NCBI GenBank assembly: GCA_030425705.1
Contig: JAUHZU010000005.1
Coordinates: 62,001 to 126,000 of the forward strand
Origin: Phycisphaerae bacterium
Lineage (GTDB): Bacteria > Planctomycetota > Phycisphaerae > Phycisphaerales > Phycisphaeraceae
Length of the DNA stretch: 64,000 bases
Direction of reading: 5' to 3'
Shown here piece by piece: positions 23,560 through 30,927 of the stretch. A model generated the notes under the pieces. The model ran no database searches. It saw only the letters and a list, made by a program, of their open reading frames with translations, and was not told the DNA's origin. A program made the position numbers and the translations under genes. Every line of letters begins with the position of its first letter. Position 1 is the first letter of the stretch.

Positions 23560-23877
23560 ATGTCCGGACTCGACGACCGCAAAGACGGCATGGACGCGAA
23601 GCTCGCCCACGACAACGAGCTGCGCTTCAAGGTGATGAACCGCCGCAACAAGCTCCTGGGGCTCTGGGCCGCCGCCAAGCTCGGGAAGACCGGCGAGGAC
23701 GCCTCGGCCTACGCGAAGGAGGTCGTCAAGGCCGACTTCGAAGAGGCCGGCGACGACGACGTCCACCGCAAGGTCAAGAAGGACCTGGAAGGCACCGGCA
23801 CGACGCCCGAGCAGATCCGCGCCGAGATGGACCGGCTGATCGCCGTCGCCCACGACCAGGTCGTCAACGAGGCCTGA
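23560..23877 (+). CDS. DUF1476 protein, F1-ATPase inhibitor zeta subunit homologue
   Basis: 105 residues, the family's typical length. It carries the family signature in order: LDDRKDGMDAKLAHDNELRF (2-23), NRRNKLLGLWAA (27-38), YAKEVVKADFEEAGDDDV (51-68) and a C-terminal helix QIRAEMDRLIA. In Paracoccus and other alphaproteobacteria this protein is the zeta subunit, whose N-terminal helix enters the catalytic F1 head and blocks ATP hydrolysis. It is cytoplasmic, with no signal or membrane helix. AAGGA is 8 bases before the ATG. The ATP synthase genes lie 14 kb away. Transfer from alphaproteobacteria is a possible origin. Confidence 0.9.
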   Translation: MSGLDDRKDGMDAKLAHDNELRFKVMNRRNKLLGLWAAAKLGKTGEDASAYAKEVVKADFEEAGDDDVHRKVKKDLEGTGTTPEQIRAEMDRLIAVAHDQVVNEA

Positions 23878-23921: not shown

Positions 23922-26900
23922 ATGTCAGAAGACGGTGCCCACGAACCCGGACCGCCGCCCGACGCGCACGCCGGCCCCGCCGACGCGCCGTGGGCCGATG
24001 CGCCCGATCGCCCCGAAGGTGCCCACGACGAGCCCATCGACACCTCAGCCGAACTGCTCCCCGGGCCGGTCACCATCGAGGTCGTGTTCGACCCGCGCAT
24101 CAACTTCGCGATGCACCACAACGCGGTCCCCGCAGTCAAGCAGGTCGCGCTGACGCACCACGGCGACACGCCGATCCGGCTCGCCGAGCTGCGCCTCTGG
24201 GTCGACCGCGCCATCTCCGGTACGTGGACGCGCACGATCGAGCGGCTGGAGCCCGGCGCGACCGTCACGCTCGACACCGTCGACCTGCCCCTGCGGGCCG
24301 ACACCCTCGCGCACACGACCGAGCGGGACTCGGCCGAGCTGCGCTGCGAGCTGCGGCTGGGCGACGCCGTGCTCGCCGAGCGGCGCGACGCGGTCGAGGT
24401 GCTCGCCTTCGACGAGTGGGCCGGCGTGGGCTCGCTGCCCGAGGCGCTCGCCGCGTTCGTCACGCCCAACCACCCCGCGGTCGACCGGCTGATGGGCGAC
24501 GTGCGCAAGCACCTCGAGTTGGACAGCCAATACCCCGACGCCGGCGCGCTCTCCGGCTACCAGCGGCGCGACCCCGGCTACGCCCGCGCGATCGTCCAGG
24601 CCGCCTACCGCGCCGTCGGCGACCTCGCGCTGGGCTACATCACCACCCCCGCCAGCTTCGAGGAGCAGGGCCAACGCGTCCGCCTGCCCGATCAGGTCAC
24701 CGAGCGGCGTCAGGGCAACTGCCTGGACCTGTCGCTGCTGCTCGCGGCCGTGCTCGAACAGGCCGGGCTCCACCCGCTGGTCGTGCTGGTCAAGGGCCAC
24801 GCCTTCGTCGCCTGCTGGCTGCACGACGACTCGTTCCCCGAGCCGGCCGTCACCGAGCCGCTGCGCCTCCGCAAGCGCGTGCAGCTCGGCGAGATCCTCG
24901 CGCTCGAGGCCACCGGGCTCACCCACCAGCCGGCCATGACCCTCGACGCCGCCGAGCGCGAGGCCCTGCGCCGCCTCGAAGACCCCGCCGAGTTCTACTA
25001 CGCCATCGACGTCGCCACCGCCCGCCGGCGACGCATCCGGCCGCTGCCTCTGCGCATCAAGCCCGGTACGTACGACCTCATCGACCTCGAACGCGCCCGC
25101 GCCGCCGAGCCCCGACACCCCGCGTCCCCCGACCTGGTCGCGCATGACCCGCCCGCGCACGACACCCAATCCGTCCCTTCGGCCGAGGGGGGACCGCCGC
25201 CCGAGACCCACCCCACCCCGAGCCCCGCGCCCGACGCCGAGCCCGGCCTGGACCTGGGCATCGACCTCGCCGACGCCTCCGCGACGCGGGCCCGGCTGGA
25301 CCGCTGGAAGCGCAAGCTCCTGGACCTCTCCCTCCGCAACCGCATCCTCAACCACCGCGATACCCGCAAGCACATCCCCCTCACCTGCCCCGACCCCGCC
25401 CGCCTCGAAGACCTGCTCGCCGACGGCCGACGCTTCGAGCTCCGCCCCCGCGACGACCTCCAGCGGGCCGACGACCCCCGCTCCGCCGAGCTGCACACCG
25501 AACGCACCGGCGAGGACCCGGCCGAGCAGTTCCTCCGCGACGAGCTCACCCACCAGCGGCTCTACGCCGACCTCACCGCCGGCGAGCTCGACAAACGCCT
25601 GGTCGAGGTCTACCGCGCCGCCCGCCTGATGATCGAGGAGTCCGGCGCGAACACCCTCTACCTCGCCATCGGCTTCCTCGAGTGGTACGAGACGCCGACC
25701 CACGACACCCCCCGCCGTGCGCCGGTCCTGCTCGTGCCCGTCGAGCTGGAGCGTCTGCCCGCGCAGCGCGGCTACCGTCTGTCGCAGCTCGACGACGACG
25801 CACGCATCAACGTCACGCTGCTCGAGAAGCTGCGCACCGAGTACGACCTGGACGTCGCCGGGCTGGACGAGCTGGCGATCGATGACGCCGGGCTGGACGT
25901 CCCGCTCATCCTCCGCCGGTTCCGCGAGGCGGTGAAGGACATCCCGCGTTGGGACATCAAAGACGACGTCGGCGTCGGGCTGTTCAGCTTCACCAAGTTC
26001 CTGATGTGGCGCGACCTGGAGGACCGCTCGGACGCGCTGATGAACAGCCCGGTCGTCCGCCACCTGGTCGAGCAGGACGGCGTGCTGCCGGGGGCCGATG
26101 CGCCGCTGCCCGACCCGGCGGAGCTGGACGCGACGCGTGCGGTGGCCGACACGTTCTGCGCGAAGGACGCGGACTCGTCGCAGCTCGCCGCGGTGTTCGC
26201 CGCGCAGGACGGGCATAGCTTCGTGCTCGAGGGCCCGCCGGGCACGGGCAAGTCGCAGACGATCACGAACCTGGTCGCGCAGATGCTGGCGCAGGGCAAG
26301 CGGGTGCTGTTCGTGTCGGAGAAGATGGCGGCGCTGAGCGTGGTGTACAAGCGGCTGTCGCAGATCGGTCTCGCGCCGTTCTGCCTGGAGCTGCACTCGA
26401 ACAAGGCGAACAAGCGCCGGGTGCTGGAGCAGCTCAGCGAGGCGCTCGACGCGGCCGGGGCGCAGGAGCCCGAGGGCTGGCGGGACCGGGCCGAGCAGCT
26501 CCAGGCGGCGCGCGACGGGCTGAACGCGGTCGTGGCAGCGCTGCACGCCGAGCACCCGATCGGGCTGAGCTACTACCAGGCCACCGCCGAGCTGATCGGG
26601 CTGCGGGACGTGCCGGCCCTGGACCTCGGGCTGGACGACATCGCGTCGCTGGACGCGGCCACGCTGCGGGCGATGCGCACGGCGCTGGACAAGCTCGCCA
26701 CCGCCGCGCTCGCCATCGCCGACACCGGCGGCGCGGCCGACCACCCCTACCGCGCCGCCGGCGTCACCGACTACACCACTACGCTGCCCGACCGCCTCCG
26801 CGACACGATCGACCCGGCCCGCGACGCGCTCGCCGCCTATGGCGACGCCCTGAGCGCGATGATCAACGCGACCGGCTTCGTGTCAACCGATACCGACCAC

Positions 26901-29900
26901 GCCACCGCCGCGCTCAGCGCCGACGACGCCCGCTGGCTGATCGCGCTCGGTGAACTGCTGCACGATCCGACCCGACCGGCCGAGGCGCTGCTGAGTGCCG
27001 GCGACTGGGCCGCGTTCAAGCCCGCGATGCTCGGACACCTCGCGCTCGGCCGACAGCGCGACGCCGAGCGCCAACGCCTGTTCGCCCGCTACCGCGACGC
27101 CGTGCTCGACGAGGACCTCGACACGCTGCGCGGCCGGCTGGTCACGGGCATGACCGCCCTGCCGATCCTCTCCTGGTTCAAGTGCCGAGGTCCGCGCAAG
27201 CGCATGAAGATGCTGCTCGCGGCCGGCAAGCTGCCCGGCAACGCCGAGCTGGTCGAGGACCTCGACGCGCTGCGCAAGCTCAAGACGCTGACCGCGTCGC
27301 TCGTCGACCCTGCCCATCCGGCCGCCGCGGCGTTCGGCCCCGCTTGGCGAAGCGGCGAGGCAGAGTGGGACACGCTCGAGCAGCAGCTCGACTGGGCCGA
27401 GCGCTACCGCACGCACCTCGCCCGTCCCGTGAGCGACGGGCTGGGCCCCGCCGACACCCGCCGGGAACGCGCGATAGCGCTGGCGTGCGCGGAGCGCGAG
27501 CCGTTCCTCGCCGAAGGCCCGGGCGCGCGAGCGACCGAACAACTGCGCAGCGCCGACCGCGTGCTGGCCGAGAAGCTCGACGCGCTCAACGCGCTCATGG
27601 CCGCCGACGACACGATGGCCTGGGGCGCGGCCGACGAGCCGGGCCGGGCCGGGACCGTCCGCACGACGCTCGACGCATGGTCGTCCCACACCCTGCTGCT
27701 CCGCGACTGGTGCCACTACCGCGGCACGCGCGACGCCGCGGCCGACCAGCGCCTCGGCCCGGTCATCCACGCCTACGAGTCCCGCCTCATCGGGCCGGCC
27801 GACTTCCAGGACGTGCTCACGCGCTCGGTCCTGACGCAGTGGCACGCCGCCGCCTCCGACGCGACGCCCGAACTCGGCCGGTTCGCCTCCGCCGAGCACG
27901 AACGGCAGATCGAACGGTTCCGCGCGCTCGACAAGCAGTACCTCGATCTCGCCGGCCGGGTCGTCTACAGCAAGCTCGCCGAGCGCGTGCCCATGCTCTT
28001 CGCCGAGCCCAGCGCGAACTCCGAGGTCGGCATCCTCAAGCGGCAGATGAAGCTCAAGCGTCGGCACATGCCCGTGCGCCAGCTCCTGCAGGCGCTGCCC
28101 AACCTGCTGCCCCGGCTCAAGCCGTGCCTGCTGATGAGCCCGCTGTCGGTCGCGCAGTACCTGGACGCGGACCACCCGCCGTTCGACCTGGTGGTGTTCG
28201 ACGAGGCGTCGCAGATCCCGGTGTGGGACGCGGTGGGCGCGATCGCGCGCGGCGCGTCGTGCGTCGTCGTGGGCGACTCGAAGCAGCTCCCGCCGACGTC
28301 GTTCTTCCACAAGCTCGAGGGCGACGACGCCGTGCCCGACGAGAACGACTTCGAGGAGCTCGAGAGCATCCTGGACGAGTGCAGCGCCGCGGGGCTCCCG
28401 TCGATGCGGCTGCTGTGGCACTACCGGTCCCGGCACGAGTCGCTGATCACGTTCAGCAACTACCACTACTATGACAACCGCCTGTTCACTTTCCCCAGCC
28501 CGGTGCGCGAGTCGCGGACGATGGGCGTGTCGATGCGGGCCATCGAGGACGGCGTGTACGACCGCGGCCGGACCTGCACGAACCCCATCGAGGCCGAGCG
28601 GCTCGTCGCGGAGGTCGTCGACCGGCTGACGGGCTACGACGACGACAGCTACCAGAGCATCGGCGTGGTGACGTTCTCGATGGCGCAGCAGACGCTGATC
28701 GAGGACCTGCTCGACGCGGCCCGGCGGGACCACCCCGCGATCGACCGGTTCTTCACCGACGCGGTCGAGGAGCCGGTCTTCATCAAGAACCTGGAGAACG
28801 TGCAGGGCGACGAGCGGGCCGAGATCTTCTTCTCCGTGTGCTACGGCCCGGACAGCGCGGGCAAGGTCGCGATGAACTTCGGCCCGCTGAACCGCGAGGG
28901 CGGGGAGCGACGGCTGAACGTCGCGATCACGCGGGCCCGCCGGCGGGTCGTGGTGTTCTCGTCGCTGCGGGCGGACCAGATCGACCTGTCGCGGACGCAG
29001 CAGGTCGGCGTGAAACACCTGCGCAGCTTCCTGGACTACGCGCAGCGCGGCGCGGACGCGATCGGCGAGGCCGTCGCGCTGGGCGAATCGCTCCGCGCGA
29101 TCCGCCCCTTCGAGCGGGCGGTCGAGCAGGCGGTCCGCGAGCTGGGCTACGGCGTAGACCGGCACGTGGGCGCCTCGGGCTACCGCGTGGTGCTGGGGGT
29201 GCGCGACCCGCGCGCCGCAGACGCCGACGGCACACACAGTGAGACCGACGGTCAAGGCGACGGCCGGTACCTGCTGGGCATCGAGTGCGACGGGCCGATC
29301 TACGCCAGCGCGCCCGCGGCACGTGACCGCGACCGCACGCGGCCGGGCGTGATGGGCGGGCTCGGCTGGCGGCTGCACCGGGTCTGGTCCGCCGACTGGT
29401 GGCACGACCCGGCCGGCGAACAGGCGAAACTCAAGGAAGCCATCGAACGCGCCCTGCGCGGCGAGGAAACACCACGCGCCACACCCACCGCGCCCCCCAG
29501 CGACGACGGCGGGACGCACCACGCGCGACGAGCGCTGCCGCGCCGCGTGCCGGGCATGTCCGAGTACAAGCCGTACGTCGCGTCGCGCCCGGCCGGGGAC
29601 AGCGACGGCTTCTACGACCCGGGCAAGACGTCGCAGGCGGTGAAATCGCTGATGAAAGCCGCCGAGCGCGAAGCGCCGATCCACCACGAGCTCTTGGCCC
29701 GGCGGGTCGCGGGGCTGTGGGGGGTGACGCGGCTGACGGGTAAGGCGCAGGCGCGCGCCGAGGAGCTGGTCCGGCAGGCCGTCGCCGAGGGCCGGCTCCG
29801 TGTTGAGGGCGGGTTTGTGTGGCTGGCGTCGCAGTCGCCGGCGGACTACGCGGGGTTCCGTGCGCCGTTGGGCGGCGGCGAGCCGCTGCGGCACATCGAG

Positions 29901-30125
29901 GAGGTCCCGCCGGCGGAGGTGGGCAACGCGGCGTTGGCGGTGCTGGACCAGATGGTCGCGCTGCCGCGCGAGGAGCTGGACCGTGCGGTGGCGGAGCTGT
30001 TCGGGTTCGCGCGGGTGACCCGCCGGGTGCAGCCGACGATCGACACGGCGGTGCAGGGGCTGCTGGACGCGGGGCGTTGTGTGCTGGACGAGAACGGGAA
30101 CGTGGCGTTGCCCGCGGGGCAGTAG
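23922..30125 (+). CDS. DUF4011 / superfamily 1 helicase / Vsr-like nuclease / DUF3320 protein (Hhe-type candidate phage defence)
   Basis: 2067 residues. In order: a beta-rich N-terminus, a transglutaminase-like segment (RRQGNCLDLSLLLAAVL, about 262-300), the DUF4011 region (RLDRWKRKLLDLSLRNRIL, from about 459), and an SF1 helicase core with Walker A LEGPPGTGKSQTITN (about 768), Walker B VVFDEASQIP (about 1425), GDSKQLPP, WHYRSRHESL and VAITRARRR (about 1666). A Vsr/MTES_1575-like nuclease follows (LGIECDGPIYAS and GWRLHRVWSADW, about 1785-1830). A DUF3320 domain closes the protein (about 1880-2065). This single-gene layout corresponds, from memory, to the Hhe antiviral family. The position usually His after the IECDG-x-x-Y motif is Ala here. 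CutC follows 16 bases later. Confidence 0.85.
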   Translation: MSEDGAHEPGPPPDAHAGPADAPWADAPDRPEGAHDEPIDTSAELLPGPVTIEVVFDPRINFAMHHNAVPAVKQVALTHHGDTPIRLAELRLWVDRAISGTWTRTIERLEPGATVTLDTVDLPLRADTLAHTTERDSAELRCELRLGDAVLAERRDAVEVLAFDEWAGVGSLPEALAAFVTPNHPAVDRLMGDVRKHLELDSQYPDAGALSGYQRRDPGYARAIVQAAYRAVGDLALGYITTPASFEEQGQRVRLPDQVTERRQGNCLDLSLLLAAVLEQAGLHPLVVLVKGHAFVACWLHDDSFPEPAVTEPLRLRKRVQLGEILALEATGLTHQPAMTLDAAEREALRRLEDPAEFYYAIDVATARRRRIRPLPLRIKPGTYDLIDLERARAAEPRHPASPDLVAHDPPAHDTQSVPSAEGGPPPETHPTPSPAPDAEPGLDLGIDLADASATRARLDRWKRKLLDLSLRNRILNHRDTRKHIPLTCPDPARLEDLLADGRRFELRPRDDLQRADDPRSAELHTERTGEDPAEQFLRDELTHQRLYADLTAGELDKRLVEVYRAARLMIEESGANTLYLAIGFLEWYETPTHDTPRRAPVLLVPVELERLPAQRGYRLSQLDDDARINVTLLEKLRTEYDLDVAGLDELAIDDAGLDVPLILRRFREAVKDIPRWDIKDDVGVGLFSFTKFLMWRDLEDRSDALMNSPVVRHLVEQDGVLPGADAPLPDPAELDATRAVADTFCAKDADSSQLAAVFAAQDGHSFVLEGPPGTGKSQTITNLVAQMLAQGKRVLFVSEKMAALSVVYKRLSQIGLAPFCLELHSNKANKRRVLEQLSEALDAAGAQEPEGWRDRAEQLQAARDGLNAVVAALHAEHPIGLSYYQATAELIGLRDVPALDLGLDDIASLDAATLRAMRTALDKLATAALAIADTGGAADHPYRAAGVTDYTTTLPDRLRDTIDPARDALAAYGDALSAMINATGFVSTDTDHATAALSADDARWLIALGELLHDPTRPAEALLSAGDWAAFKPAMLGHLALGRQRDAERQRLFARYRDAVLDEDLDTLRGRLVTGMTALPILSWFKCRGPRKRMKMLLAAGKLPGNAELVEDLDALRKLKTLTASLVDPAHPAAAAFGPAWRSGEAEWDTLEQQLDWAERYRTHLARPVSDGLGPADTRRERAIALACAEREPFLAEGPGARATEQLRSADRVLAEKLDALNALMAADDTMAWGAADEPGRAGTVRTTLDAWSSHTLLLRDWCHYRGTRDAAADQRLGPVIHAYESRLIGPADFQDVLTRSVLTQWHAAASDATPELGRFASAEHERQIERFRALDKQYLDLAGRVVYSKLAERVPMLFAEPSANSEVGILKRQMKLKRRHMPVRQLLQALPNLLPRLKPCLLMSPLSVAQYLDADHPPFDLVVFDEASQIPVWDAVGAIARGASCVVVGDSKQLPPTSFFHKLEGDDAVPDENDFEELESILDECSAAGLPSMRLLWHYRSRHESLITFSNYHYYDNRLFTFPSPVRESRTMGVSMRAIEDGVYDRGRTCTNPIEAERLVAEVVDRLTGYDDDSYQSIGVVTFSMAQQTLIEDLLDAARRDHPAIDRFFTDAVEEPVFIKNLENVQGDERAEIFFSVCYGPDSAGKVAMNFGPLNREGGERRLNVAITRARRRVVVFSSLRADQIDLSRTQQVGVKHLRSFLDYAQRGADAIGEAVALGESLRAIRPFERAVEQAVRELGYGVDRHVGASGYRVVLGVRDPRAADADGTHSETDGQGDGRYLLGIECDGPIYASAPAARDRDRTRPGVMGGLGWRLHRVWSADWWHDPAGEQAKLKEAIERALRGEETPRATPTAPPSDDGGTHHARRALPRRVPGMSEYKPYVASRPAGDSDGFYDPGKTSQAVKSLMKAAEREAPIHHELLARRVAGLWGVTRLTGKAQARAEELVRQAVAEGRLRVEGGFVWLASQSPADYAGFRAPLGGGEPLRHIEEVPPAEVGNAALAVLDQMVALPREELDRAVAELFGFARVTRRVQPTIDTAVQGLLDAGRCVLDENGNVALPAGQ

Positions 30126-30141: not shown

Positions 30142-30927
30142 GTGGCCGAGCCGTTGCTGGAGGTGTGTGTGTCGTCGCTGGGGGACGCGTTGTCGGCGGT
30201 CGAGGCGGGTGCCGGCCGGGTCGAGCTGAACAGCGCGCTGGAGCTGGGCGGGCTGACGCCCTCGCCGGGGCTGCTGCGCGAGGTGGTCGAGGCGCTGTCG
30301 GTGTCGCCGGCGACAGTGATCGCGATGGTCCGGCCCCGGCCCGGGGGGTTCTGCTACCGCCGGTCCGACCTGCGGGTGATGAAGCGGGACGTCGCGATGG
30401 CGCTGCGCCTGGGCGCGGATGGCGTGGCGCTGGGCGTGCTCACGGCCAACGGCGAGGTCGACGCGGAGCGCAACGCGGAGCTGATCCGGCCTGTGCTCGC
30501 GGCGGGCCGGCAGGCGGTGTTCCACCGCGCGTTCGACCTGACGCCCGCGCCGATGGAGGCGCTCGAGACGCTGATCGAGCTGGGGTTCCACCGCGTGCTC
30601 ACCAGCGGGCAGGCGGCGAGCGCGCTCGAGGGCGTCGGCACGATCGGCGCGCTGACACGATGCGCCGCGGGGCGGATCGAGGTGCTGCCCGGCGGCGGGG
30701 TCCGGCCGGACAACGTCGCCCGGCTCATGTCCTTCGGCGGGTGCGCGCAGCTGCACGGCTCGATGCGCACGCTCCGGCAGGACCCGTCTACCCGGCACCA
30801 GCCGACGCTGCGCTTCGGGCCCGAGCAGCTCCCGCCCGAATCGGTCTACGGCGTGACGGACGAGCAGTTGGTCGCCCACGTCGTGCAGGCGATGCGCGAC
30901 GCGGCAGAGGCGGACGCGGGGTCGTAG
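30142..30927 (+). CDS. cutC: CutC family protein (copper homeostasis)
   Basis: 261 residues from a GTG at 30142. GGAGGT lies 6 bases before it, an ideal ribosome-binding site for this start and not for the other in-frame candidates. The protein is a TIM barrel with the CutC signature EVCVSSLGDALSAVEAGAGRVELNS at the N-terminus, then GGLTPSPGLL, VMVRPRPGGFCY-like MVRPRPGGFCYRRSD, HRAFDLTPAP, VLTSGQAASALEG and LPGGGVRPDN. CutC is assigned to copper tolerance in Escherichia coli, though its direct role is debated. It follows the large helicase by 16 bases and may be co-transcribed by read-through. Confidence 0.93.
   Translation: MAEPLLEVCVSSLGDALSAVEAGAGRVELNSALELGGLTPSPGLLREVVEALSVSPATVIAMVRPRPGGFCYRRSDLRVMKRDVAMALRLGADGVALGVLTANGEVDAERNAELIRPVLAAGRQAVFHRAFDLTPAPMEALETLIELGFHRVLTSGQAASALEGVGTIGALTRCAAGRIEVLPGGGVRPDNVARLMSFGGCAQLHGSMRTLRQDPSTRHQPTLRFGPEQLPPESVYGVTDEQLVAHVVQAMRDAAEADAGS

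Follow-up and report, generated by a model that had tools for sequence, protein, structure and literature searches.

The window analysed here is a stretch of 64,000 nucleotides from a Phycisphaerae bacterium (Planctomycetota; GenBank assembly GCA_030425705.1, contig JAUHZU010000005.1, positions 62,001 to 126,000 of the forward strand). At 23922-30125 of the + strand, directly before cutC, it carries an uninterrupted, ATG-started open reading frame (ORF) of 2067 codons, whose product matches from end to end the family that NCBIfam names anti-phage ProA, and whose Vsr-like nuclease domain has exchanged a near-invariant Asp and a usual His for other residues. The ORF cannot be a chance one, because it matches a curated family model over its full length. 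The protein and its parts, including a helicase of superfamily 1 (SF1), are:

23922..30125, +, ProA-family giant protein of 2067 amino acids (aa): intact ORF, 2023.3 bits to NCBIfam model NF058533 over 1-1903 of 1903
24057..24410, +, N-terminal beta-sandwich (Ig-like) domain, residues ~46-163: AlphaFold2 model, many sandwich matches at Z 9-10
24426..25010, +, transglutaminase-like putative cysteine peptidase domain, residues ~169-363, with C267, H293 and D363: His/Asp conservation, and 3kd4 at Z 9.3
25314..25832, +, DUF4011, residues 465-637: Pfam PF13195, 168.4 bits
26157..26531, +, SF1 helicase, first part, residues 746-870, with Walker A GPPGTGKS (771-778): AAA_11
26532..28061, +, helicase insert, residues 871-1380, its C-terminus the fastest evolving part by per-domain identity
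28062..29021, +, SF1 helicase, second part, residues 1381-1700, with DEASQ, QLPP, VQGDE and AITRAR: AAA_12
28818..28820, +, A1633, replacing the usual motif V Asp after VQGDER (Asp in 74/86 rows)
29109..29444, +, Vsr-like MTES_1575 nuclease domain, residues 1730-1841, predicted to have lost catalysis: Pfam PF18741 and modelled fold
29190..29192, +, V1757 (codon GTG), replacing the near-invariant nuclease Asp (Asp in 77/86 rows)
29304..29306, +, A1795 (codon GCC), replacing the usual nuclease His (His in 50/84 rows)
29604..29744, +, DUF3320, residues 1895-1941: Pfam PF11784, 36 bits

A previous sequence-only reading had seen most of these domains in one ORF and proposed a single-gene antiviral system of Hhe type. 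The ORF and its domains are indeed there at full length: DUF4011, AAA_11, AAA_12, MTES_1575 and DUF3320 all exceed their Pfam cut-offs, the MTES_1575 match reaching 86.1 bits over profile positions 1-96 of 96. The transglutaminase-like segment leaves only a trace in Pfam (DUF553, E 0.072) and is upheld by its modelled fold: an AlphaFold2 model of residues 45-680 (mean predicted local distance difference test score, pLDDT, 85.0) shows a beta-sandwich followed by a transglutaminase-like domain, and model residues 125-319 match 3kd4, annotated as a putative protease (Z 9.3, root mean square deviation (rmsd) 3.2, 134 residues). No HEPN family stands among the Pfam matches listed (25 of 28, E up to 1), and no DUF4011-like fold in the structure-search listings, a silence that says nothing for or against it. 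The DUF3320 region overlaps a winged helix according to PMC3710099.

Two defence libraries, NCBIfam and PADLOC, bear out the antiviral candidacy, and it is the type that fails. NF058533 is matched at 2023.3 bits against a cut-off of 1500, whereas the NCBIfam Hhe model NF042953 gives 804.4 bits, below its cut-off of 2000, which rules out an Hhe identity by that standard. The best PADLOC model is the candidate system PDC-S37 (PDLC05009), at 1358.7 bits with residues 455-2054 aligned to 6-1539 of 1550, against 570.4 bits for PADLOC Hhe; PADLOC scores are compared in bits, and the PDC-S37 match is judged by its near full length. The congeneric copies in three other genomes (G002, G003 and G004, the three tested) show the same preference for ProA over Hhe. 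Thus an Hhe system in the proper sense, for which the real homology to both Hhe models, best over the helicase-nuclease half, might be pleaded, is very improbable given a score so far under those of ProA and PDC-S37; the label was a near miss, taken from a related protein of another family, because Hhe fails and ProA passes its curated cut-off. By profile match the protein is a member of the known defence family ProA and not of Hhe. In its available portion PMC13249269 names 'Gao Hhe' and gives no description of the protein.

For the residue comparisons, homologues were defined by a BLASTP match and an ORF length of 1,450 aa or more, with a single ORF per locus and shorter or split ones left out; the window's own copies were dropped, as were rows without a difference over a 600-residue stretch, and 86 were kept, or 87 rows with the window. 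Not all of the 86 are ProA, some being Hhe-like or otherwise related, and 20 of the 87 rows lack Cys at position 267. The alignment was made in a faster MAFFT mode with approximate gap placement; counts refer to rows with a letter at the position, and numbers of losses to parsimony on a FastTree tree of the 87 rows. Against this background (columns filled in at least 60 rows) the window protein departs from a consensus of at least 80% at only 8 positions, of which 6 look conservative; the other two are V1757 and A1633.

V1757 lies in the motif GYRIDLAV, in the place of its Asp; A1795 stands for the His; the IECDG motif is kept. L005, the closest relative at 72% identity across aligned sites, likewise has Val and Ala at these two places, L004 has Thr at 1757, and both nearest outgroups, L052 and L053, have Asp. 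A sequencing error at V1757 is unlikely, because the codon GTG of the window is matched by GTA in L005 and ACG in L004. Both losses recur in the two congeners whose ProA lies beside cutC, and the nuclease Asp and His are thus missing in three congeners. In Vsr, the Asp of the corresponding strand and a following His are catalytic. V1757 and A1795 probably correspond to that pair, judging by the alignment and by a weak profile match to the endonuclease-like 3hrl (E 0.064), which lays the Asp motif on VDF and IECDG on VEADG. The modelled domain (mean pLDDT 80.8) resembles the catalytic domain of I-Bth0305I (3r3p: Z 12.3, rmsd 2.4, 96 residues) and Vsr (1cw0: Z 11.1, rmsd 2.3, 106 residues); plain Foldseek is weaker (best E 1.8e-3), and for a profile built from the domain's sequence the top matches are RAP-domain proteins (E 4e-4). 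The Vsr-like nuclease of the sequence-only reading therefore stands as a domain with its IECDG, and the working nuclease that the name implied is doubtful in view of V1757 and A1795.

Among the 84 rows with letters for all three of Asp, Glu and His, 49 have all three; 9 lack Asp, every one of them also without His; 14 lack Glu, 13 of these also without His; and 12 lack His alone. Asp was lost three times, in the window clade, in a clade of five rows from another family of the order and in L101, and parsimony places ten changes of Glu and twelve of His. His is the column most tied to loss of Asp or Glu among the 69 tested, other columns following close behind, and is second of 64 among rows with the Cys. 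By these counts, the loss of nuclease residues is unusual and repeated.

The domain that lost them is not decaying. The window nuclease matches consensus at 0.80, against a mean of 0.79 for intact domains, and in the closest pair, window and L005, it is 82% identical, with nonsynonymous and synonymous divergences (dN and dS, Nei-Gojobori) of 0.123 and 0.86 against 0.213 and 0.59 for the whole gene. In this pair, at least, the substitution pattern indicates that the fold is still constrained.

The helicase keeps K777, D1427, E1428 and Q1455 in 87/87 rows. Upstream of it, 66 of the 67 rows that have C267 retain H293 together with D363, and every one of the 9 rows that lost the nuclease Asp is among them; because these 67 rows were chosen by their Cys, only H293 and D363 are informative. 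The helicase motifs named in the sequence-only reading were found (Walker A, DEAS and AITRARR), but motif V has changed, with A1633 for Asp. The motif V position is likewise Ala in L005, L004 and all five rows of the other Asp-less clade, and Asp in L101; four rows with the nuclease Asp intact (L089, L058, L057 and L068) also lack the motif V Asp. The joint disappearance of the two Asp residues in two separate lineages, uncorrected for relatedness, suggests that the helicase and nuclease domains work together. The other clade (L046, L047, L048, L049 and L010), from another family of the order, has Ser for the nuclease Asp and Ala for the motif V Asp in 5/5 members, independently of the window clade.

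The gene is neither absent from defence libraries nor conserved throughout its order, the combination that the sequence-only reading had set against itself: the defence search it had suggested was run and returned both ProA and PDC-S37, and the ProA cut-off is exceeded in 22 of the 201 genomes searched in the order (5/5 of the genus), which rules out a core gene of the order. Within the genus, G001 has the same neighbourhood as the window on both sides, and G002 reads phosphoesterase, ProA, cutC, followed at some distance by citrate synthase and atpA. In G003 the same phosphoesterase, cutC, citrate synthase and atpA are present, but ProA would not fit, since only ~120 bp separate phosphoesterase from cutC at their aligned ends; the AtpA identity of G003 is 88%, vs 90% in G002. 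G003 and G004 carry ProAs with Asp, Glu and His intact on other contigs and on another branch of the tree, ~41-44% identical, whose available flanks match none of the window ORFs compared (the left flank in G003 is cut off by the contig end; in G004 the cutC contig ends there, and the place cannot be judged). A single vertical ProA lineage across the genus is ruled out by these identities, branches and flanks. Because G003 is without ProA at cutC while the window, G001 and G002 have it there, we take it from this comparison that ProA was gained or lost at that place inside the genus, and that a second ProA lineage sits elsewhere in two species.

Relatives (E up to 1e-30) occur in 349 of 72,556 plasmid records, only 7 of which cover 80% of the query in one place. 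Of six relatives read from plasmid or phage records, all retain the nuclease Asp and four also Glu and His, L151 and L154 being without the latter two (by motif search, not alignment). Viral contigs searched with the N-terminal alignment gave 94 pattern matches, with no relative among them. At two of the four annotated plasmid loci (L152 906-5637 and L153 162-4883) a YhaN-family protein and a 'DNA repair exonuclease' stand beside the ProA relative, neighbours that presumably resemble an SbcCD-like pair. The sole phage record with a relative (L154, MT836269.1) is an unverified faecal scaffold of 11 kb; its nuclease motif is the same as in the Bacteroides plasmid copy L151, and the record is perhaps a mislabelled bacterial fragment. 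In the flanks of homologues (90 ORFs scanned, chosen from 245) defence models were scattered, none in more than 2/90; three AAA_27 and three Metallophos members were also present, and with no control set no enrichment is claimed.

The immediate neighbours in the window, in the order zeta, ProA, cutC and all on the + strand, are:

23560..23877, +, ATPase inhibitor subunit zeta, upstream, 44 bp before ProA: PF07345, E 2.4e-34
30142..30927, +, cutC, downstream, likely GTG start 16 bp after the ProA stop: PF03932, 200.3 bits

Genes for a BamD/YfiO-like protein, LptE and FtsH lie further left. The sequence-only reading had placed the gene between a 'respiration regulator' and cutC with no adjoining methylase; cutC is correct, no methylase is among the flanking genes scanned, and the regulator is instead the ATP synthase inhibitor. 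The F1FO-ATPase inhibitor subunit zeta is known from alphaproteobacteria. In this order PF07345 exceeds its cut-off in 21/121 genomes, and our literature search found no paper joining ATPase inhibitor, zeta subunit and Planctomycetes.

We favor, at roughly even odds (a probability of about 0.52), the explanation that the gene is a ProA-family single-protein anti-phage system which in this lineage carries a Vsr-like pseudo-nuclease and acts via its helicase and protease-like domain. Binding of foreign nucleic acid would fall to the C-terminal winged-helix/DUF3320 part and to the nuclease fold, which is retained; the SF1 helicase would hydrolyse ATP, moving on or remodelling that nucleic acid; and the resulting conformational change would activate the N-terminal transglutaminase-like cysteine peptidase, the putative effector, on phage or host proteins. 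The patchy spread of ProA over the order, its two lineages within one genus and the relatives on plasmids also speak for it. The analysis itself establishes the family membership, the kept helicase ATPase residues and Cys-His-Asp set, the loss of nuclease Asp and His in three congeners, the constraint that persists on the nuclease fold in the closest pair and the shared place beside cutC; phage defence in this host, inactivity of the nuclease and an effector role for the peptidase-like domain are what we infer from these sequences. In PMC3710099 (2013), giant HEPN-transglutaminase-helicase-Vsr-winged helix-turn-helix (wHTH) proteins were proposed to act without a modification enzyme, the nuclease being placed first and protein cleavage a possible further line of defence. 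A more tentative extension, which we hold somewhat doubtful, is that ProA proteins in general can work without cutting by their nuclease. Helicase and transglutaminase-like peptidase would then form the obligate machinery, with the nuclease fold sensing nucleic acid and coupled to helicase motif V, and ProAs with a pseudo-nuclease would be a recurrent class able to settle in core genomes. If true, ProA would be a protease system triggered by nucleic acid and not a nuclease of the restriction kind.

Several points weigh against the pseudo-nuclease explanation. The Cys-His-Asp set as a working peptidase is putative. The helicase departs in part from the canonical form: the motif V Asp is missing from 8 of the 9 rows that have lost the nuclease Asp, vs 4 of the 77 others (relatedness ignored), and helicase action may have changed together with the nuclease. 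Because domains lacking Asp or Glu are more diverged on average (consensus match 0.59 vs 0.79), the link between this lack and His loss is partly general divergence, and the Fisher test on the nuclease-residue rows ignores relatedness. Between window and L004 the codon comparison gives no clear extra constraint on the nuclease (64% identity, dN 0.289, dS 0.60, against 59%, 0.354 and 0.68 for the whole gene). In 3 of the 5 congeners the gene lies among housekeeping genes, unlike a typical defence island. Finally, the 'anti-phage' label of ProA is NCBI's family name, with no ProA phage assay in the literature examined; none of the papers listed was recognisable as treating ProA as an anti-phage protein, none named PDC-S37, and none with DUF3320 was found other than PMC3710099. 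DefenseFinder's 'Prometheus', going by the part of its description available, may or may not be ProA.

Two other explanations compete, both of which we consider unlikely. The nuclease may still cut with other residues (E1788, D1790 and nearby acids), ProA then destroying phage DNA as a helicase-nuclease: none of the 9 Asp-less rows lacks E1788 or D1790, the domain is strongly constrained between window and L005 and as consensus-like as intact ones, and nuclease action fits much of the family, since the plasmid and phage copies read keep the Asp. Against such cutting, the missing Asp would be the one in the strand that bears the catalytic Asp of Vsr-fold nucleases, subject to the weakness of the 3hrl alignment, and the His is gone too. 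Alternatively, with a similarly small likelihood, this genus has turned ProA from defence to a housekeeping task (DNA repair or RNA handling). That G000 and G001 hold the gene at one position amid core genes, and G002 next to cutC, would suit such a takeover, as would a divergence like that of neighbouring cutC (ProA identities 73 and 60%, cutC 73 and 53%) and the nuclease loss with the changed motif V; and in P. aeruginosa a DUF4011 gene, perhaps of another family, is reported as a core flank of a defence hotspot (PMC10250203). It accords poorly with one congener being without ProA at that place and two having a distant ProA elsewhere, as if the activity had been regained by transfer. Natural losses of nuclease residues beside kept helicase ATPase residues and a near-complete Cys-His-Asp set make it inexpensive to find out which domain acts as the effector, and the case warns against naming giant defence genes from domain lists alone.

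Among known systems, the window protein is most like ProA (NF058533), which it matches at full length and over the cut-off; it differs in that its lineage is without the nuclease Asp and His and its gene stands among housekeeping genes. These two residues are our own yardstick, outside the definition of NF058533, and their absence marks a variant whose membership stands. PDC-S37 is the best PADLOC model and matches near full length, but starts at about residue 455 of the window protein, without the N-terminal transglutaminase-like part. Hhe (NF042953 and PADLOC Hhe) is homologous, most strongly over the helicase-nuclease half, though the window protein scores under the curated cut-off. Giant proteins such as MTES_1575, as described in PMC3710099, similarly join a transglutaminase-like domain, SF1 helicase, Vsr-type nuclease and DUF3320/wHTH in one protein without a methylase gene, but carry the HEPN domain that was not among the matches listed for the window protein, in which the nuclease residues are lost.

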